Source: Mesaphorura yosii | Taxonomy: Eukaryota > Arthropoda > Collembola > Poduromorpha > Tullbergiidae | Direction of reading: 5' to 3' | Assembly: GCA_009869945.1 (NCBI GenBank) | Contig: WIXG01000141.1 | Coordinates: 1 to 64,000 of the forward strand | DNA length: 64,000 nucleotides | Part shown: positions 32,615 through 58,830 of the stretch, piece after piece | How the letters are laid out: every line of letters begins with the position of its first letter | Position numbering within the stretch: the stretch's first letter is position 1 | The notes under the pieces: generated by a model | The model's input: only the letters and a program-made list of their open reading frames with translations | What the model was told of the DNA's origin: nothing | The model's database searches: none | Translations under genes and position numbers: made by a program

Positions 32615-33277
32615 ATGTGTGAGGCTAAGATGGACCCGGAGTCTCCAGAAGAGAGCGACAAACAAAATATGATTGACATCAAGTCCACGGCACGCAACAC
32701 AAACTCAGAGCCTCCTTCACCACCTACCGGGCCCGCCGCAGCAGCCTCGCCACCACAAACCGTCACCACGGCTACGTCGACGGGCGCTGCGGCAGGAACG
32801 ACTCCGCCAATTAAGCATTGTCCACTCACACCGCAGAGTCAAGGAACAGTGGGGGATGACGACGACGAAGAGGAAGACGTCCACGAGCAGGACGCGGATG
32901 TGTCTGACCAGGTGGAGGATGAAGAAGACGGACATCACAACCACCATCAGCACCTCACGCCAGCTCGAAGTCGGCATCTTCATCACATCCGACACCGCAA
33001 CCACCACCACCATCACCACAAACAGGAACAACCGTACAATTACGGAATCAACAAAATGGAACACGACGACGACAACGTTACCTCCGAGGATGATGACGAA
33101 ATCAGCGTTGGCGGTTCGCCATCCCCATCGCCAACGCTGGTGATATCTCCGTCGAATCACCACTTCCACCCGGACTTGACAAGCCACAGTATTAACAGCA
33201 AGCGAAATATTCGACATCTCGGGCAGAATCCCGAAGAGGAGTACTTCAAACCGCTGAAGAAACTTAGAATGCTAAAG
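32615..33277 (+). CDS. Lbx: Lbx exon 1, acidic and His-rich N-terminus
   Basis: 221 codons ending at donor aag|gtaatg (GT at 33278-33279), phase 0. Composition: Ser/Pro/Thr/Ala-rich segment (EPPSPPTGPAAAASPP), acidic run GDDDDEEEDVHEQ onward, His-rich run with HHHHHH near residue 131, a second acidic patch (SEDDDEISVGG), SPSPSPTL, and finally RNIRHLGQNPEEEYFKPLKK. The frame stays open upstream to 32558 without an ATG, so a start upstream or a 5' splice is possible but not needed. Assignment to Lbx rests on splice phase and order with exons 2 and 3. The exon itself is low in family-specific motifs. Confidence 0.82.
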
Positions 33278-36200
33278 GTAATGCTCATTTTGAATATTTT
33301 TGACTTGTAATTAATGAATCGAAATCTCAGAGGTTCCATATAATAATCACGCACTCGAAAAACAATGGGAATAATTCGTTATAGTTTGTCGTTTTCTCAT
33401 TTATAAGAGATGGGGCTAGAGCAAATCCAATTCAATGCCTGAATGTCAAATGTTTCGTAAAAATAATTTTCAACCAGACAACCGAATATGTAGTAATACT
33501 GAACGCAATATAAATGTGTTGAGTCGCATTTTAAAAAATTAAAACATGCACGCCACATTTTAATATTTATAATCTCATTAATCCACTTGTATTTTGACTT
33601 TTCCAAAAGTTATACGTTGAATAGACGCAAAATGCGGCTTCTCATTTTTGACTCAAATTAAAAGGCCTCTTCCTGCCTTGCCTTATTTATAAGATTCGTA
33701 TTACAATGATTGATTAAAGCAGTGTGTTTTCCGTTTCTAGTTGCATTAAATAGTAAAAGTATGACTGCAGTATTTTACGCTAATTTTCTTGCAACTTTCG
33801 TTTATTTGACGCCTGGTCTGACGCTGATTGTGTGTAAAGCATAGAAAAGGAAAACGCGAATTGATCTTACAATTCATTAGCATTGCTAGCTTGTTACAGA
33901 TTTTGCACTGCATCACAGCACATCATGTACGTTGATTGCGTTCATGACAAATGACAAACTGTCGTTTTTACACAACTTGAAATGCGAACAGTTGTTAATC
34001 ATAAGAACTTTCGAGCTTGGTGTGCTAAGACGCTTCTCTACAATAAACATGAAATAATGACGCGTCATACAACTCACACGGCATTTGACGTTAAATAATA
34101 TTGACAAAATATGTTTGCCTTTCCTCATTGGCGGATTTCACTTGAGCTAAATTGCCATTTCGAGTTAGTACACCATTAATAAGTTTCATCATCACGAAAG
34201 CAGGAAATCGACTGACCAGGTTCCATCCATCCATTTTGTGCTTAATAGTAGTTAATTACATAATTTCACAATTGAATTTCAAATTAACTCATTCGACGCA
34301 AGCCGCATTGTCCCACATGCTGGAGTTGAGTCGTAATTGAAGTTTTATCTCACTTTGGCACTCGCATTTAGCAGTATTTAATTTTCAAAAGAGACAATTT
34401 GGGCTTGGTACGGAATTATGTAACCAAAGAGCAATAGCGAATGGGGCGCATACGACGGGCAATCTTGCTGAAGCCTAGCCTTTTGCAAAACAATTATCTT
34501 CGAGGATTTTAATAGTTAAATTATAGAGGCAATGGTGCACGAATTTACTCACAATTACAGAACGCGTGGTTTATAATTTGTCTGGCTCCGTTGAGGCAGA
34601 CGAGCGCCAGCGCAAGCGTAATGACAGGATAGGCTTCCGAATAAAGAAATTGCGGATGAATTCTCATTAAATTTGCACGGCGCTAAAAAGTATTACATAG
34701 AAGAGAAACAAGACACGACAAAGCAATATTACACGCTTAGTCTGCCCTGACTGTGTTTGCAGATCTATTAAAATCGCTCGTCTATTTGAATTGATGATTA
34801 CATTATTATATGAGAGCGGCTCCGCGTAACACAACGGGGACACAAGGCTCGATGAATTGCCAACCCTTTCCCTCGGCTCAATATTGGGATTAGACTCCAT
34901 TAATAATATTGCGTTAGTGAAATCTAATGGATGAACTCCGCCTTTCTCATGCCTCGCGCCAGGCCAGCATTTCTCAAACCACTTTCTTATATTTAATTTC
35001 AATGTAGCGAGCTTCAGTTGCGATATTTTGGAGGCTCTTTATTTTCTTCACCGCTTGAGTTTCCCAATGACAATAGTCATAATTAATGTTTGACATTTCT
35101 AAAAGCCTATTTGAGTAATTGTGGCGAAGTACTTCCAAGAATAGGTCATCGAATAGAAGAGCCTAGTGTTGCTGAAACTCGGCCTAACGTAATAGCAGGA
35201 AGAGCCTTGCAGGCCGATAATTTCAATGCTGGTCGATGTGGCTTGCCGACAGACGAAATGAGAGGTTAAATGTCAATTCGTGCCAGAGAGGTTAAAGTAG
35301 AGGATACAAAAGGAAAGCAAACAGGCGGACCAATCAGAGGAAAGAACATGACAATTGAAACATAAGTAGAGTAATGATTGGAGGGTCCAATCGGAGCGAA
35401 CTGTGTTCACAGTGTAAATTATAAATGAGAAAATGATGGTATTGTCTTGTAATTCAAGCATTCATTATACGAAGCGACGATAATGTGCGCCCATCATCAC
35501 AGCGAATACACGAAGTGGAAGTGAGTGGAATTTTTTTTACAGCCTTTGATGTAGGCTCCATTAACTTTATCCATTTTAACGGTACATCAAAATCAAATTT
35601 TATTATGTGAAAGATACACACAGGATGGCCAATCGGCATTTGCAATGTTGGAAGTTTTGTCTTAAAAATCATGACTCTGATAAAATAGATTGCTTCGCCG
35701 CTTTTCTGCATTGTGGGAAAAGAAAACAAGTCATGTTGATTACGGCAAGTTATCTCTAATTTCTTTTTGGGGGAAAAAGTTCTTGTGCACATTTTATTAA
35801 GATAGTTCGTGTTGATTCGTCTTTTAATGGATTTGCAATAATTCATTATCTCTAAGAAGCACACTTTGTCCCTCGCGTCTCGTAAATGAATCTAAGCTGA
35901 CGGGCTTTCTAGCGCTAATGCCACTTTTGCTAATGATTTCAGGTGGAGTCTACCACAAGTCAGAATGCAGTCGGAGTAAAGTCATTCTCAATTTCAGACA
36001 TCCTAAGTCATAAACCATCGCAGAAAAAGACTCACACAACAAAGAGCAGTAGTAACAGCAGTGGGAGTAGTAACTGCAGCAGTCGGACAATAGACATAGA
36101 AAATGTGGTGGCCAACACGCATCACCACCAGCAGCAGCAGAGAATTGTACGCCCGTGGGATCCACATCAGCAATCCAATAAATCAAATGGACGCCGCAAT

Positions 36201-39200
36201 TCCTCAGACTCATCGCCATTAGACGCTCTGTTTCAGATGACATCCAAGACGTTTGAGGGTCTCAACGGTCATCATGAGGGTTCAGGTAAATATCATAATC
36301 ACAAATAACGATTATGACCATCTCACAGCATTTCTTTCCTCTGCCATTCGATTCATTGTCATTAATGTCGCTCCCATTAACTGAATTGCTCATTTACACT
36401 CTGTCTTTTTGTCCAAGATCAACGTTGAGAAAGAAAGAATTTATTACGGGTGAGCAAATTCATCAGCTGTTGATTCTCTGAATGATTAGGTGAAATTCCA
36501 CCAACGCTTAATTTATGACCCATGTAATCATTTCCCTCAGTCGTTGTGTCATGCACATCATGCGTTCATTGTCCGCTTTTTGCGGCGGTCTGTACATTAT
36601 ATTTTCGTCGTCTGACATCTGCGATTTCGGGTCCCGATTCATGTGGCTCAGTTTGTTTTGTTTCACTTGAGATTGTGCGAGGTATTTTCTTAAACTTCCT
36701 CATTGCTGTGTTCTCTGTTAACAAAAGAAGCATGAACTTCTGCTCCAGTCCTTAGTCATAGTCATTAGTTTAAGCATCATTGAGATTAATTCAAGGCAAA
36801 CGATTAGAAACAATTGAGAAGCTCAAGCAACGGAACAACGAAAGCTCAGTTTTCAAAGACCAAAGAATTTTCTGCAAAAGTTCAAAAATTTGAACTGAAA
36901 TTACGCTTTGAATTGTACGATTCGCTACGTTATGCTAGACGGGGCATTTTTTGCTATCTACTTTGGTTATTTAATATTAACCGCATTTCATCTTCTTGTA
37001 TCGGGTTCTTTTGATAAATTACCTATTTGTATGCTCTTTTGGCTGCCTATTCACAAAGTTCATTGAGCATTCACAAAAAATGGTGGAACCTGAACAAAAA
37101 GTTAGCAAATGTTGCGGTTGAATTAAAACACGTCTTCTCGAAAGTCATTTCCATTCCTAATTTTTTTTTACTACCGCCGCTCTTCTCTTTGCGGTGTGGT
37201 GCGGTGATGCCGTGTGTAAGCGAGCCTAAATATGTGCTTATTTAAATTGAATTACGCAATGACGACAGCGTAACGCGGCTGGTGTGCAGGTTTCGTCTCT
37301 TTTGTCTTTGCACGTCTAATTGGCACGAGTACAGAAACGAGAATGATATTTTCGTACAGAAACAGAAGCAAAACGCATCTGCGACCGAACGCAATTTGTA
37401 TTCTGTAAAATTCCGACTTTCACAAACAATACTTTGCTTGCCTTCATTTTTATTGTTTTCGAGCTCCCGCGGGTAAGATTGCAAGGGAAGCCGCGATTAG
37501 CAACGGGTAAAGACACAGCAATAAATAGTAAATTGCCAATTAATTTTCTTAAAATAACTCGAATCTCGTGAGTACTCAAGCGATTCCTAATCATTTCGGA
37601 TATAATTGCCAATAACACAATAAGGACCTGAAATCGTGCAGGCTTTGATGCAACGGAACACGCAAAGTGAACTAAACTAGCCTTTGCACACATGAGTGAA
37701 CTCGTCGGCATTTTCCAACTACAGATTGAAATTACTGTTGATTCTGAAGTTTGTCGGATCATCTGTTCGGCTCCTCTGTGCTATTGCGACATTTGCATTG
37801 GATTGCATTTTAAATTACATTTTACGAGAGTTGTTGAAAGTTGGTATTATGTTTGAAAAGTTATGAAATATTGATATTTATGAATACTGCGACTGCGAAG
37901 AGAAAGCAGTCAGTCGTAGAGCTTAATGAATTTTTCGCCATGCCGTGTATTGCGTTTTATAATTTATTGTGAGGCATTCTTGTTAATAGTTGTTATTTTC
38001 TGGTTAACAATTGCGTTATTGATTGTTGATACTATTAAGCACATGCGTTTAACATAATGTGATGATCATTTGCGTTTTATGCATAATGCAAGTGTCCCGA
38101 AGCCATTCCGCATCACCATCACGGTTCTCCGTCCATGCTGCCATATGTACTTGCCGCTTCAAGCTTATTATCTTCTCGATCATTATTTTCGCAATAAACC
38201 GAGCGAGTATCATTATCGTTATTAATGAAATGAGTAATTACAGCCCAGGCTGAAATGCTCAACACGAGAAAATGGAAATTTGTCACTAATTACGGATTCA
38301 AGTTGCAAAATTCCGATATTAAGACCGGCACTGCTTGAGGACGTTTTCGTAAATAATAGATAATGAAACGATAAATATTCCTCGTGATAAGTATTTACTC
38401 TCCTTCATGATGGAGTCACGGGCTGGCTGCTCACAGGTGTAAAGCAGTTGAAAACACATCTATCAAATTGGGTTGTCCGCAAGCATCAATCAAACTCTAG
38501 ATTATTTATTATGAATAAAGAGAAAAGAATGAAGCAGGGCTTTTCTTTGTGCGATCTGATGTTCGGCCGACACGCACAACCATTTGAGATAATACGCCTT
38601 GCATGGCGATGGCCAAAGGACAAACACAGATAGCATTATACCACTGGTTTTCGTGCCACATGCCTTCTTATTGTGCCATGCCGTATGATTTTGCGATCAC
38701 CCCGTTTCTAATTCGGAGATTTTGTCAACGGAAGTGATAACTGCATTGCCTTGCGTTCGCCATTTGTAAGGCTTAATCAAGAGCCACATTAGCAGTATGG
38801 CTTGAGTCAGGACAGCCTGATGAGGTGGATAAAAAGCCGAAAGGTGAAAGAATCAAAAACAAGACAGCTAGAAGAGAACGCAACTGATAATAATAATTTA
38901 TTACGAAGAAATGCACTATCTTAGGCTTAACCCTTCCACATGCGAATGCGCACAAGGCAATCGAAGGAAGAACGAAATCGAGTGAACCTGGGTGGTAAAT
39001 TAAAGTGAGAACTCGATTCCAAAGGTATTATTATGAAAGTTACGAGTTTCAGAAACAACACGGGAACCTAACACCGGCCAGGGCAGGGCAGGTCGCAGCA
39101 CAGAGAAGCTCAATAAGATTGGAAAAGGTGCAGGAAAAAATTGCAATTTATTTCATGTTTTGGGGGAATAAATAAATGTTCTAAACATGGCATGCACACA

Positions 39201-54200: not shown

Positions 54201-57200
54201 ATGTCTTTTTTACCTTTCTCGGCTCAAGTGAAGTTGTCAAATGCTCACTGGCTCGTAGCACGTTTGCCATGCCGGGTTTCATTTCAGAGTCGTGTAAATA
54301 TTGTGATGTGATAGGTGGGTTCTCTTTTCTCTTTTTATAACCCATTGTTGTTGTTCCGTGATGTGCGACATGTTTGGTTAATGAGGGGATTTATAATGGC
54401 GATGGCACTCTCCATTATTCTGCCACCAAACATCCTTACATTGCCATTCCTGCCAGGTCGACTGGCAACTATCAACTAGCAAGTGGCGATGGTTCGCATG
54501 CTTGCTCGGTTTGCTCCACTGCGCTGCTCGCTGCACCGTCTTTGCTGCCAAACCTACTTAATGCTCTCTTTTTATTAGATAGGATTTTTCAATCTGTCAT
54601 CATATCCCCGGAAATGAATACCTTCGTCTATGCCATGACATGAGAACTGTCGTGAGGAATGACACAGAATGACGTGCGTCTAACTGAGTGGTCAGGCACC
54701 GAGCACTAAAATGGATTCTACTTTTGAATATGAGTAGTTTATATTTTATTAGGAACCAACAGAAATGAATGACAATTACGGCGAGACAAGGCTGAACGGT
54801 GTGAGTTTCTGTTGAGATAGCACGCACACGCGTGACAGATGGACGGACGGGCTGACATCGTCAAACTGTTTCATGTTTCTCATTACTTTACCTTTTATTT
54901 TTGGACCCGGTGACTTGTCTTGCCTTTGGTGCTGGATGCTCTCGTGATTGCTGTATCGCATTACACCTTTCAGACAGCCATCTTTCATTTCGCTTCGTAC
55001 GTGTCGAGTCGATTGTTTCATCATCACATATCATCCTCATAATAGACGGACGTCTTCCTGTGTTCTGCCTCGAGCTTCCTTCCCCTTTCCCTGCCACGCC
55101 GACCATATTTGGTCATTACTTCAATACAGTTGGGCTATTATCATAATAGCACTAAAAAGTTATGAATACCAGAAAGACACTTTTGACATGACAAGTCATG
55201 GCTGCACTGCCAAATCGTTCGTAACAATGCACCACTCATTTCATATTTCATCGCTTTGCTCCATTTTCATTTTCCCACTTTATGCTATCCATTTCCAAAT
55301 AGTAAATTTGGTAAAAAGCAGTTACATATTTTCTGGATGCGGACATTGTTGTTAAGTGCGTTTTAGTCATGCTGTGGCGCCATGTCAGATGTTGTCTTGG
55401 TAATTACATCACAACAACAACATGCGTCATGTGTTTGTCGTGTCGTAGATTTTGTACCATTCAAATTCATTCATACAGCACTTGCGCTTGACTGTCTGGT
55501 ACATCACGTGAAGTTCGAGAAGTCAGCATAATAACATGATTATTAGTGGAACCAGCACGAGTGCTGTTTTACTAGCAACGAGAAATTTCTCAAGTGCGTT
55601 GTAAGTCCGGTCATATTTTCATTGTTATCGTCGTCTTGTGCTAATGCTACTGCCGCTGCACGGGTCAACCAACTTGCACTCCACGTTACTAGATTTGGAT
55701 ATTATTGTCAAGTCGTACTCTCAATTAAGGAGAGCTTAAGCAGGCCCTAAATCGGAGGCTTAAGCAGCATGATTTTAAAATAAGAGAGTCAACCAGATAA
55801 ATTATGGAATGAATACGAGCATAGTTACTCGAGCGAGATCAAGCACAAAGCTGCCGCCGCCGCTGTCCGCTCCCGTCCGTGAGGCACTTGCACGGGCTTA
55901 AGTTGTGTATAATTGCATTGGTAATACTCTTCACGTGTTTAATGGAGATTTAACTCCAAAAAGGAACTGAAAGACTTAAGAACATTATCGTCAATCCCTT
56001 CCTGAAAGACTTTTATTATTGTGGTCCCGTGGACGGTATTGTTGTGGTTCCTTTTCCTTTTTTCTTAATTCACAATTTACAATTTACGGCGCTATGCTGA
56101 AGGATAAATGACAAAGTAAATGGAAAGTATTAATAAAATATATTTAGTTTTGGTTTTATTTTTATGATAATTGTCGGATGAAATGAGCACATGTGACTGT
56201 AAAGCAATAAATTCTTGAATTGGGCAAATACGATGGAAGCCCTAAAATATCTCATTTGTTCACGTCTTTTGTTATATTTTCCTGGAACTTTGTGGACAAC
56301 TTTTACAAAAAAATCATAATCAATTTCTGCTTAATTTCAGAATTTGGAGGTCAAGGAAATGCTCATCAAGCTTTCAACGCACGTCAACCACCGAAGAAGA
56401 AGCGAAAGTCTCGAACTGCATTTACCAACCACCAAATTTTTGAACTGGAGAAACGATTCCTGTATCAAAAATATTTGTCTCCGGCTGATCGTGATGACAT
56501 TGCTCATCAATTGGGACTTACAAATGCACAGGTGGGTTGGACAACTTTGTATTTATTATTAAACTATTTCCAAAGCAAACGTACACAATTATGAAACCCC
56601 CGTTTAAAGACTTCCACCAAATAAGAAGATGCCTCCATCCGTTGAATTCACACAAATGTGTTAAATAATTGAGTGTACCCAAGAAAAAAATTCCGCCTGC
56701 CTGATTCATTAATTATCATACAATTTAGTAAACACCGAGGCTGATTTATTCTTTGTCTTCGCCTTCTCCCACCGTCCAAACTGAAATGTATTGTCATTCA
56801 CAATTGATTAACTGGCAACTGTTTCTTATTTCTAAAGGTTATAACTTGGTTTCAAAACCGGAGAGCCAAAGTCAAGCACTACATTCCAAAGATATTTCCG
56901 ATTGATTAACGGAAAATATTTGTTTCTTTCTCCAAAAGGTGATAACTTGGTTTCAAAATCGGCGAGCTAAGCTTAAGCGTGACATGGAGGAGATGAAGAA
57001 GGACGCGGAGTCGTTGCACATGATCTCGGCGCACAAGACGTTCCTGGAGAGTGCGCACGACTTGGCTCTGCTAAAGAAACGAGCTCAAAGTATGGACATG
57101 AGCTCTGCCGCAGCGGCTGCTGTGGCTGCCACCGCATTTCATCATATTTCATCTCCAACCTCATCTTCACAGTCATCCCACTCGCCTATCAATCTCACGT

Positions 57201-57226
57201 CGGAATCTCCTCCTTCAACCCATTAA
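32615..57226 (+). CDS. Lbx: Lbx (ladybird) homeobox transcription factor, complete gene with alternative last coding exons
   Basis: Nuclear homeodomain transcription factor, orthologue of Drosophila ladybird early/late and vertebrate LBX1/2, which specify muscle, heart and neuronal subtypes. Exons: 32615-33277, 35943-36285, 56341-56531, then either 56838-56909 (4a) or 56939-57226 (4b). All junctions have GT-AG borders and matching phases (0, 1, 0). With 4b the protein is 494 aa, with 4a 422 aa. Order of parts in the 4b form: acidic run 81-105, His-rich run 107-135, Eh1-like FSISDIL 236-242, PLDALFQMTSKTFEGL 313-328, homeodomain 356-415 (R5 at 360, T47, Q50, N51), then the ladybird tail with SAHKTFLE and ALLKK. 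It is longer than vertebrate LBX1 (about 280 aa), mainly because of the N-terminal low-complexity part. Start choice: ATG 32615, with ATG 32630 (aagATGg) as a good alternative five codons later. Confidence 0.93.
33278..35942 (+). other. Lbx intron 1
   Basis: A 2.7 kb intron from gtaatg to a tttcag acceptor (AG at 35941-35942), phase 0. No repeat, RNA or nested gene recognised. The minus frames at 34667-35002 and 35454-35864 have no similarity I can name. Confidence 0.8.
35943..36285 (+). CDS. Lbx: Lbx exon 2 with Eh1-like repressor motif
   Basis: 114 codons plus one base, ending at donor tcag|gtaaat. FSISDILSHKP near the start matches the Eh1-like FSIEDIL block of vertebrate LBX, a motif that in related factors recruits Groucho/TLE. 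Near the end, PLDALFQMTSKTFEGL matches the vertebrate PLCALEELASKTFKGL block. Between them lie Ser-rich (SSSNSSGSSNCSS) and His/Gln-rich (THHHQQQQR) linkers. The single last base (G) joins AA of exon 3 to give Glu336, confirming the splice. Confidence 0.92.
36286..56340 (+). other. Lbx intron 2, 20 kb
   Basis: The largest intron, from gtaaat (36286) to ttaatttcag (AG at 56339-56340). No nested gene is supported. The longest plus frame, 173 codons at 41357-41878, reads like chance sequence and is matched by a 133-codon minus frame on the same bases. A 24-bp palindrome lies at 43350-43373 and a 12-bp inverted pair at 45748/45961. By analogy with other NK genes this intron is a likely place for enhancers, but I see no specific motif cluster above chance. 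Confidence 0.7.
43350..43373. repeat. Perfect 24-bp palindrome in Lbx intron 2
   Basis: Two 11-bp arms (aaattccaatt and aattggaattt) around a 2-bp centre (ac). It could be a dimeric protein-binding site or chance in AT-rich DNA. Confidence 0.6.
56341..56531 (+). CDS. Lbx: Lbx exon 3, homeodomain residues 1-44
   Basis: Opens with AA completing Glu336, then FGGQGNAHQAFNARQPPKKK leads into the homeodomain RKSRTAFTNHQIFELEKRF, LYQKYLSPADRDDIAHQLGL, TNAQ, and ends at donor cacag|gtgggt in phase 0. The exon boundary falls between homeodomain residues 44 and 45, a position used for introns in many homeobox genes. Helices 1 and 2 are nearly identical to vertebrate LBX and fly ladybird. This exon is shared by both predicted isoforms. 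Confidence 0.97.
56803..56837 (+). promoter_or_regulatory. Acceptor region of exon 4a (branch-point-like site, pyrimidine tract, AG)
   Basis: attgattaac at 56803-56812, then ctgtttcttatttctaaag with AG at 56836-56837. The same attgattaac recurs before exon 4b, so this splice signal belongs to the duplicated unit. The tract is pyrimidine-rich and the branch-to-AG spacing (about 25 nt) is normal, so the site looks usable. Confidence 0.65.
56838..56909 (+). CDS. Lbx: Lbx alternative exon 4a: second version of homeodomain helix 3 with a short tail
   Basis: In phase with exon 3 it encodes VITWFQNRRAK, then VKHYIPKIFPID and TAA (56907-56909). It is a tandem copy of the start of exon 4b, 101 bp upstream. 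Over the first 13 codons, five differ silently, only one changes the protein (Leu56 to Val) and seven are identical. That pattern suggests selection on the protein rather than a decaying copy. Homeodomain residues 45-57, including T47, Q50, N51 and R53, are kept. Residues 58-60 become His-Tyr-Ile, and the conserved ladybird tail is lost. The predicted isoform is 422 aa. Use of this exon is inferred from sequence; no transcript evidence is available here. The alternative is a non-spliced relic that has so far kept its frame. Confidence 0.72.
   Translation, partial: VITWFQNRRAKVKHYIPKIFPID
56901..56938 (+). promoter_or_regulatory. Acceptor region of exon 4b, overlapping the end of exon 4a
   Basis: attgattaac at 56901-56910, then a tract ending tttctttctccaaaag with AG at 56937-56938. 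It repeats the arrangement before 4a, with a slightly longer tract. Its branch-point-like gattaac contains the TAA stop of exon 4a, so this stretch would serve as both splice signal and coding end. Confidence 0.7.
56939..57226 (+). CDS. Lbx: Lbx exon 4b: canonical homeodomain helix 3 and ladybird C-terminal domain
   Basis: In phase with exon 3 it encodes VITWFQNRRAKLKRDMEEMK, then KDAESLHMISAHKTFLESAH, DLALLKKRAQSMDMSS, an Ala-rich run (AAAAAVAATAF), a Ser/His/Pro-rich end and TAA. RAKLKRDMEEMKKD is the standard Lbx sequence. The SAHK-FLE ... LLKK block resembles fly ladybird and supports an ecdysozoan source. Pairing with exon 3 gives the expected full-length protein (494 aa), so this is the default last exon. 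Confidence 0.95.
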   Translation: MITWFQNRRAKLKRDMEEMKKDAESLHMISAHKTFLESAHDLALLKKRAQSMDMSSAAAAAVAATAFHHISSPTSSSQSSHSPINLTSESPPSTH

Positions 57227-58830
57227 ACACCATACAGACATCAGACTGCGAAGAAACGAGTGCGCGCTGGTCGAATCTCCATTCGTAAGGCGACCTATTA
57301 ATAATATTAGGGCTACTGCTGGACAAAATGGAATGACCACAACAAATTCAAAGCGTGATGCAATCTAATTCAGACTCAGGCTCCTTTCTTTTCTCTCGTC
57401 TTTGGGGCTGCCTTCCAGATAACCAGTCAGGCTAGACACTCGTTCGAAGAACCCTATTTACAAAGTCAAAGTTAGACGAAAGTGGCATCTGAGAACAGAT
57501 GCCATGTTGAATCAAATTTGGCTTCATCCCAGCATGCTAATTGCATGACAGAATATTAATAACCTCCTCAGCGACTTCCTAGAACAAGAGCGTAGAACTA
57601 AGTGCACATTTAGAAATGTGTGCTCGAGACATTTACCGTTTCAGTAGCCAATTTTGATCACCACCGTTGTTTTGCCCCACTTTTCAATCGTATTGATTTT
57701 TTGCACTGAGTCTGCCACCTCATGACAGTTCGGTCTCTTGAAAGCGGAGCCAAACGGCCATAATTTTATGAGTGTGAAATGCCTTTTATCACCTTCTTTG
57801 AAAATCACAAAACAAAACAAGGCACAATACAAAACCAGTACTTTGTAATTCTCACAGGATTTGTCGAATATCGGTCGACCTGTCGTCGGTCAAATCTAAT
57901 TGCCACTTAAGGTGGGCCTGTCTGAAAGGGAAAGCAAATGCGCCGTCTGCACGATAGAAGGAAGTGAATGCCTATCTTGCGAATGTGGTCCCTTTAATAT
58001 TTCCAGTTCAGTATTACTAAAATATTTAACCATGTCGTCGTGTTATGGATGAACGAGAGACGAACGGACAAGTGTCGATATTTTAATGAGAACCTCTTTT
58101 CATGTTGGAATACCATTTTATTTATTTCGCTAGTTGACAACATTGTGAATAGTACCTCTAGCGTGAGTACTTACGTGTAGAAATAACGCTAAGCATTAGG
58201 AAGTATCATTCAAAGCTGTCAAACTGTACAAATTCACAAATTAGCTTGTAAAGTAGGCTAAGAGTGCATTCACGCCATAGCATCCAACGTAGCTTCTTCA
58301 TATCCTAATTTATGTGCAAATGTAACCGCAACTACAAGTACGCTATTGCAATTCTAACCTGAATTTATAGATACAAGGATTTAAAGGTCCCTCGTAATAT
58401 ATTATAAGTATCCCAAATGTAGTCTAATTACGTAAATGCTGGGAATATGCAAGAAAACATGTACACATTCCTAACTTGTAAGGATAAGGCAAGTGCAAGC
58501 CCTCTAACTAAGCTAGCAACGTGAATATTTAGTGATGGCGTAGGAAGTGTCCGCTTTAGTTAAGTACTCATTAAGGCCAAGACCACGAGTTCGGTTTATT
58601 TTAGCAACTCCTAGATCCTATCCTAGCCCAACAATGGTGTTTAGAAACTCGACAACTATATTTGATAGTAGATTAAGGGTTAAGCCACAACTTTGCAGGA
58701 TTCTGTTAATTCGATACCAAAAAGTATGCTATGAGTTAGACATTAATTAAACCTGTAATTAATGTATTCATTTTCCTCTGCTCCGTGTTATTCTACTTGA
58801 TTGAGTGGCAATAAAATCAATCCTTGTTTG
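57227..58830 (+). other. Probable Lbx 3' UTR
   Basis: About 1.6 kb between the 4b stop and the first clear AATAAA. No open frame resembling a gene. If exon 4a is used, the 3' UTR would begin at 56910 and include all of exon 4b, with no later exon junction. Confidence 0.5.
58810..58815 (+). terminator. Candidate Lbx poly(A) signal AATAAA
   Basis: The first AATAAA I find after the Lbx stop (caataaaatc), followed by a T/G-rich stretch (ccttgtttg ... gttggtgat) at 58822-58849, as expected for a cleavage site with its downstream element. Confidence 0.5.

Follow-up and report, generated by a model that had tools for sequence, protein, structure and literature searches.

The window, by which we mean the entire 64,000-nucleotide stretch analysed here (40.6% G+C), contains a Tlx/C15-like homeobox gene, with its homeodomain exon at 680-988 and a tail exon from about 4863, and, on the same (+) strand, a gene that we name Lbx and that spans 32.6-57.2 kb. 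The protein sequence at the start of the tail exon is one that we take to be a Tlx feature, and the best PDB matches by sequence for the Tlx-like homeodomain are 3a01_A (2.9e-37; named Homeodomain-containing protein in PDB and, we assume, Drosophila Clawless) and 3a03_A (4.6e-23; T-cell leukemia homeobox protein 2). A six-frame scan of the window for W[FY][QKAS]N[RHK]R found three recognition helices, namely that of the Tlx-like gene and two, designated 4a and 4b, that follow exon 3 of Lbx. Homeobox genes split by introns point to an animal source for this DNA. At gathering score the window showed no Rfam family, and no tRNAs were found in it.

In our predicted gene model, the coding part of Lbx exon 1 (32615-33277) would be an open frame closed by a donor (AAAG/GTAATG), its start codon being predicted, with an alternative ATG at 32630. 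Exon 2 (35943-36285; acceptor TTTCAG/GTGG, donor TCAG/GTAAAT) would join it in frame, and exon 3 (56341-56531), which encodes the homeodomain to residue 44, ends in phase 0 at CAG/GTGGGT. Joined in frame to a terminal exon, these segments would encode a long protein of 494 aa with 4b or a short protein of 422 aa with 4a. The naming of the gene rests on (i) VITWFQNRRAKLKRD/FSISDIL-type sequences in its predicted protein, (ii) a Pfam homeodomain match (PF00046; 79.5 bits when exon 3 is read on into 4b), and (iii) linkage to Tlx as in the NK cluster, given here by the Tlx-like exon at 680-988 on the shared strand. Exon 2 encodes FSISDIL, which we regard as eh1-like, together with SPLDALFQMTSKTFEGL. 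FSISDIL, SKTFEGL, and VITWFQNRRAKLKRD, all found in exons 2-4, are candidate Lbx-specific sequences. The predicted exon 1 also encodes a marked acidic, histidine-rich stretch. Intron 2 (36286-56340) is ~20 kb long, and the six-frame scan found no match to the recognition-helix pattern inside it.

Downstream of exon 3 lie two consecutive acceptor-plus-exon units, 101 bp apart and in the same phase, both of which begin with VITWFQNRRAK; in coordinates and phase they agree with the initial annotation. The acceptor AGs are at 56836-37 (4a) and 56937-38 (4b), placing the exon starts at 56838 and 56939. Region 4a (56838-56909) reads VITWFQNRRAKVKHYIPKIFPID and then TAA (56907-56909), and region 4b (56939-57226) opens with VITWFQNRRAKLKRDMEEMKKD, continues through the long Lbx C-terminus, and stops at TAA (57224-57226). 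The duplicated unit begins upstream at ATTGATTAAC, present at 56803-56812 and 56901-56910, and takes in the pyrimidine tract and AG of each acceptor (56820-56837 for 4a and 56921-56938 for 4b; 14 of 18 bases identical). The spacing of the ATTGATTAAC copies is 98 rather than 101, owing to a 3-nt indel. Each copy contains TTAAC, with its A at -27 of the 4a acceptor and at -30 of the 4b acceptor, and is a candidate branch-point element; other, looser yTnAy matches also occur upstream of both acceptors. In the 4a frame, the second ATTGATTAAC supplies the codons ATT GAT TAA (I, D, stop), and one element thus seems to serve the long form as its putative branch point and the short form as its stop.

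A direct repeat of 65 nt was found here with 78% identity at a spacing of 101, and the homology reaches further upstream, to ATTGATTAAC. ATTGATTAAC occurs in the window at 56803 and 56901 only (0.31 expected), and GATAACTTGGTTTCAAAA, with up to 3 mismatches allowed, occurs in the 64 kb at these two places only (0.17 expected). Further, a local alignment of 56803-56900 with 56901-57001 scored 82, whereas none of 2000 dinucleotide shuffles exceeded 38. The duplication is therefore not a product of chance, which bears out the proposal that a tandem duplication had copied the acceptor together with helix 3. The arrangement is one of adjacent homologous exon copies, that is, a tandem exon duplication. 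Past residue 57, the agreement drops to 10 of 24 bases, for which shuffling gives P = 0.08. When the 23 AGs in 56560-57009 were ranked by the pyrimidine content upstream of them, the 4b acceptor came first and the 4a acceptor second. Both of these acceptors end in AAG, in contrast to the CAG at the acceptors of exons 2 and 3.

The initial annotation had described the two units as competing last exons, a description that the intervening sequence does not bear out. A search for AATAAA and ATTAAA found neither signal in 56838-56944, and no good donor could be made out by eye among the five GTs in 56838-56939. Past 4a, the first signal is the ATTAAA at 57222, which overlaps the stop of 4b; an AATAAA at 58810-58815 is a candidate poly(A) signal common to both isoforms. 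With no such signal or donor between the copies, a transcript using 4a would continue through 4b and share its 3' UTR, and the two copies are best classed from their sequence as tandem alternative 3' splice sites, a single terminal exon being served by two complete acceptors. Two other classes were considered and rejected: mutually exclusive cassette exons, for which each copy would need its own donor (absent by eye) and 4b instead reads to the stop of the gene; and alternative last exons, for which the upstream copy has neither AATAAA nor ATTAAA in 56838-56944 to give it a separate poly(A) site.

The exon 3 + 4a reading scored 80.7 bits against PF00046 and covered 56 of its 57 positions, and the exon 3 + 4b reading, at 79.5 bits, covered all 57; the 4a reading therefore fits the homeodomain model as well as the 4b reading does. 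At residues 47, 50, 51, 53, 54, 55, and 57, which we take to be the DNA contacts, the two readings are identical. At the sequence level, this upholds the suggestion of two in-frame readings with almost the same recognition helix and different C-termini, with 12 of the 13 residues at 45-57 shared. The short form would have seven residues after position 60 and lack the C-terminal region. Its tail has no recognisable feature, and an open frame of 23 codons has a chance of ~22% at 40% G+C.

The comparison over these 13 codons was likewise as first described: five codons differ by one silent base each, and one codon (GTC/CTT) encodes V in one copy and L in the other. The seven nucleotide differences fall on the three codon positions as 2, 0, and 5. 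A hand count gave 6 silent and 1 replacement differences over 8.8 silent and 30.2 replacement sites (pS 0.68, pN 0.033), and a Fisher test on the 13 codons gave P = 0.00017, a value that overstates the case by ignoring that 4b alone is constrained. Indeed, the silent excess is owed in part to constraint on 4b alone. We therefore simulated neutral decay from the 4b sequence, letting 4a drift and 4b accept silent changes only, conditioned on seven differences. At most one residue was replaced in 40, 63, and 62 of 6000 neutral runs (0.67-1.05%) at transition weights of 1, 2, and 4, respectively. When the comparison was carried on through residues 58-60, which brought it to 11 differences and 4 replaced residues, neutral decay did as well in 312 of 4000 runs (7.8%). 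The test has only seven differences as its basis, and its 3' boundary was picked after the data had been seen. The initial annotation had taken the silent excess to mean that 4a is old and has been kept for its protein; the excess itself stands over 13 codons, but the conclusion drawn from it weakens once residues 58-60 are included. Constraint on 4a is accordingly suggestive for the recognition helix only, and is sensitive to where the comparison ends. Scans of viral and prokaryotic sequence collections gave 38 and 348 pattern stretches, respectively, and no confirmed relative, a result with no bearing on conservation among animals.

We propose that a tandem duplication of ~100 bp copied the end of intron 3 (the branch-point-like element, pyrimidine tract, and AG) together with the opening codons of the last exon. 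The intron that separates homeodomain residues 44 and 45 would thereby have come to end in either of two complete 3' splice sites, arranged in tandem at a distance of 101 nt. Splicing to the downstream site would yield full-length Lbx of 494 aa in the predicted model. Splicing to the upstream site would yield a short Lbx of 422 aa, comprising the N-terminal part and a homeodomain with the same DNA-contact helix, in which the post-homeodomain region (RDMEEMKKDAES...) and the remaining C-terminus would give way to a short tail that runs 7 residues past position 60 and is closed by a stop codon within the branch-point-like element of 4b. The short mRNA would have no splice junction beyond the 4a stop and should for that reason be spared junction-dependent decay. 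Judged from the sequence, it is plausible that alternative splicing could give short and long Lbx proteins with the same predicted DNA contacts. Recognising the same binding sites without the C-terminal functions, the short protein might act as a competitor or as a repressor-only form.

That the duplicated acceptor works as such a switch between short and long Lbx isoforms, with the short form a competitor or repressor-only protein, is a reading that we hold to be about evenly poised between right and wrong; the layout of the locus, its reading frames, and the silent bias are observed, and the splicing, mRNA stability, and function are predicted from them. In its favour are the top two ranks of the acceptors for pyrimidine content, the preserved phase, the placement of TTAAC at both acceptors, the retention of 12 of 13 residues through seven differences, the Pfam scores of both readings, and the lack of AATAAA or ATTAAA between the copies, and a harmful usable upstream acceptor would presumably have been purged by selection. 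Against it count the small number of differences behind the silent bias, the featureless 4a tail, and the AAG ending of both acceptors. A selected isoform switch is, with moderate support, the best single account of the locus. Copy 4a may nonetheless be a decaying, functionless by-product of the tandem duplication, with splicing directed to 4b and at most noise at 4a, an explanation with a considerable chance of being correct. Duplications that take in just part of an exon's start arise commonly by mutation, 4a resembles 4b poorly past residue 57 and ends in a short tail, and, with residues 58-60 included, neutral decay fits the data in the 312 simulations given above. Such decay accounts less readily for the survival of the acceptor, the branch-point-like element, the phase, and nearly the whole recognition helix through high silent divergence, and just 40-63 of 6000 neutral runs matched the 13 codons.

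The complete 4a acceptor and the early stop upstream of the 4b acceptor would also suit a regulatory decoy, whose use, or the assembly of splicing factors on it, lowers the amount of full-length Lbx while the short end itself has no function. Decoy-type splicing switches are known in general, but we consider one improbable here: a decoy has no need of a kept recognition helix, yet replacements over the 13 codons are rarer than neutral decay predicts, and, under the junction rule for mRNA decay, a stop in the last exon, as the 4a stop is, would not be expected to trigger decay. It is very improbable that both copies are included, so that helix 3 would be repeated in the protein after the manner of the duplicated helix of vertebrate COE/EBF; a GT at 56871 would link 11 in-frame 4a codons to 4b, but this donor (AAA/GTCAAG) is weak by eye, and a doubled helix 3 would presumably not fit the homeodomain fold. 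A donor within 4a that would make the doubled helix the main reading was rejected, none of the five GTs being good by eye. Equally slight is the chance of an assembly artefact, that is, two alleles or a misjoined repeat, as 7 of 39 coding bases and 4 of 18 tract bases distinguish the copies, which lie in one continuous context. A docking RNA structure as selector was likewise considered, since an inverted repeat between the end of exon 3 and the 4a branch-point region looked like a selector pairing, and was set aside. In 44 of 60 shuffled introns, exon 3 paired at least as well as in its best ungapped pairing with the real intron (56392-56410 with 56743-56761, distinct from that inverted repeat), and 117 of 200 shuffles equalled or surpassed the folding of 56780-56945 (z = 0.29).

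In sum of these readings, the duplication is real, and a plausible source of a putative short form. If 4a is used, the gene would make a pair of Lbx proteins with the same DNA recognition that differ in everything after the homeodomain. DNA binding would then be uncoupled from the role of the C-terminus in a gene that takes part in muscle and limb patterning, and a 100-bp duplication would have added an isoform without a new gene. The selected isoform switch can be stated in a stronger form, in which it is old, lies within a homeobox, uses the same ten bases as long-form branch point and short-form stop, and produces a conserved DNA-binding competitor acting in muscle or limb development; in this form we regard it as doubtful.

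The initial annotation had held that no such arrangement was known for ladybird/Lbx genes. For a duplicated recognition-helix exon in Lbx this stands, in that no paper among the matches listed describes one, subscription papers being mostly outside the search. It needs qualifying in that alternatively spliced homeodomain exons exist in unc-62 and Lhx9 and that a Drosophila ladybird gene is itself reported as alternatively spliced, as far as the available portions of the respective papers go. Drosophila ladybird late (lbl), an Lbx orthologue, has an intron within the homeodomain and is reported to be alternatively spliced, giving proteins of 342, 372, and 411 aa; the available part of that paper describes no tandem copy of helix 3 and does not specify the exons that differ (PMC3142176). 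In C. elegans unc-62, according to the accessible text, alternative exons 7a and 7b encode part of the homeodomain, and the isoforms differ in expression and in their effect on a yolk-protein reporter (PMC3585033, PMC4448998). The likeness ends there, since unc-62 is of the TALE class, the part that varies is N-terminal in the homeodomain, and the choice is one of alternative exon 7 use rather than of tandem acceptors in a terminal exon. In vertebrates, splicing within the homeodomain gives Lhx9a/b an alternative short C-terminus relative to Lhx9c, but Lhx9a/b lose helix 3, whereas here either copy supplies it (PMC9310833, excerpts). A dominant-negative role has been proposed for the short Lhx9 variant, and the same excerpts report one experiment in which this helix-3-less variant failed as a dominant negative, which by analogy counts against the competitor reading (PMC9310833).

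Tandem exon duplication of a transcription factor helix is described for helix 2 of vertebrate COE/EBF; there, however, the vertebrate proteins include both copies, and the motif mediates dimers (PMC2394523, in the portion available). Micro-exon 8 of Drosophila homothorax likewise produces overlapping alternative splice forms beside the homeodomain of a developmental regulator, but its 3 or 48 bp lie between the MH and homeodomain exons and not in helix 3, and the available text describes no duplication (PMC7392893). Word counts in the accessible text of four papers on Lbx or NK genes pointed to no isoform of this kind under the words counted (PMC2446394, PMC6050708, PMC10726417, PMC13088399), the sole 'isoform' in PMC13088399 referring to NK6, and the accessible text of PMC4244043 and PMC4901127 held nothing on Lbx under the words searched. 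On gene order, the available parts of two of these papers report, for arthropod NK clusters, a swap of Tlx and Lbx in many chelicerates (PMC13088399) and that the order in spiders is NK3-Tlx-Lbx-NK7 (PMC10726417). Though at most a weak hint of a chelicerate source, the Tlx-then-Lbx order in our window resembles this chelicerate-type order of the NK cluster, as those excerpts describe it.
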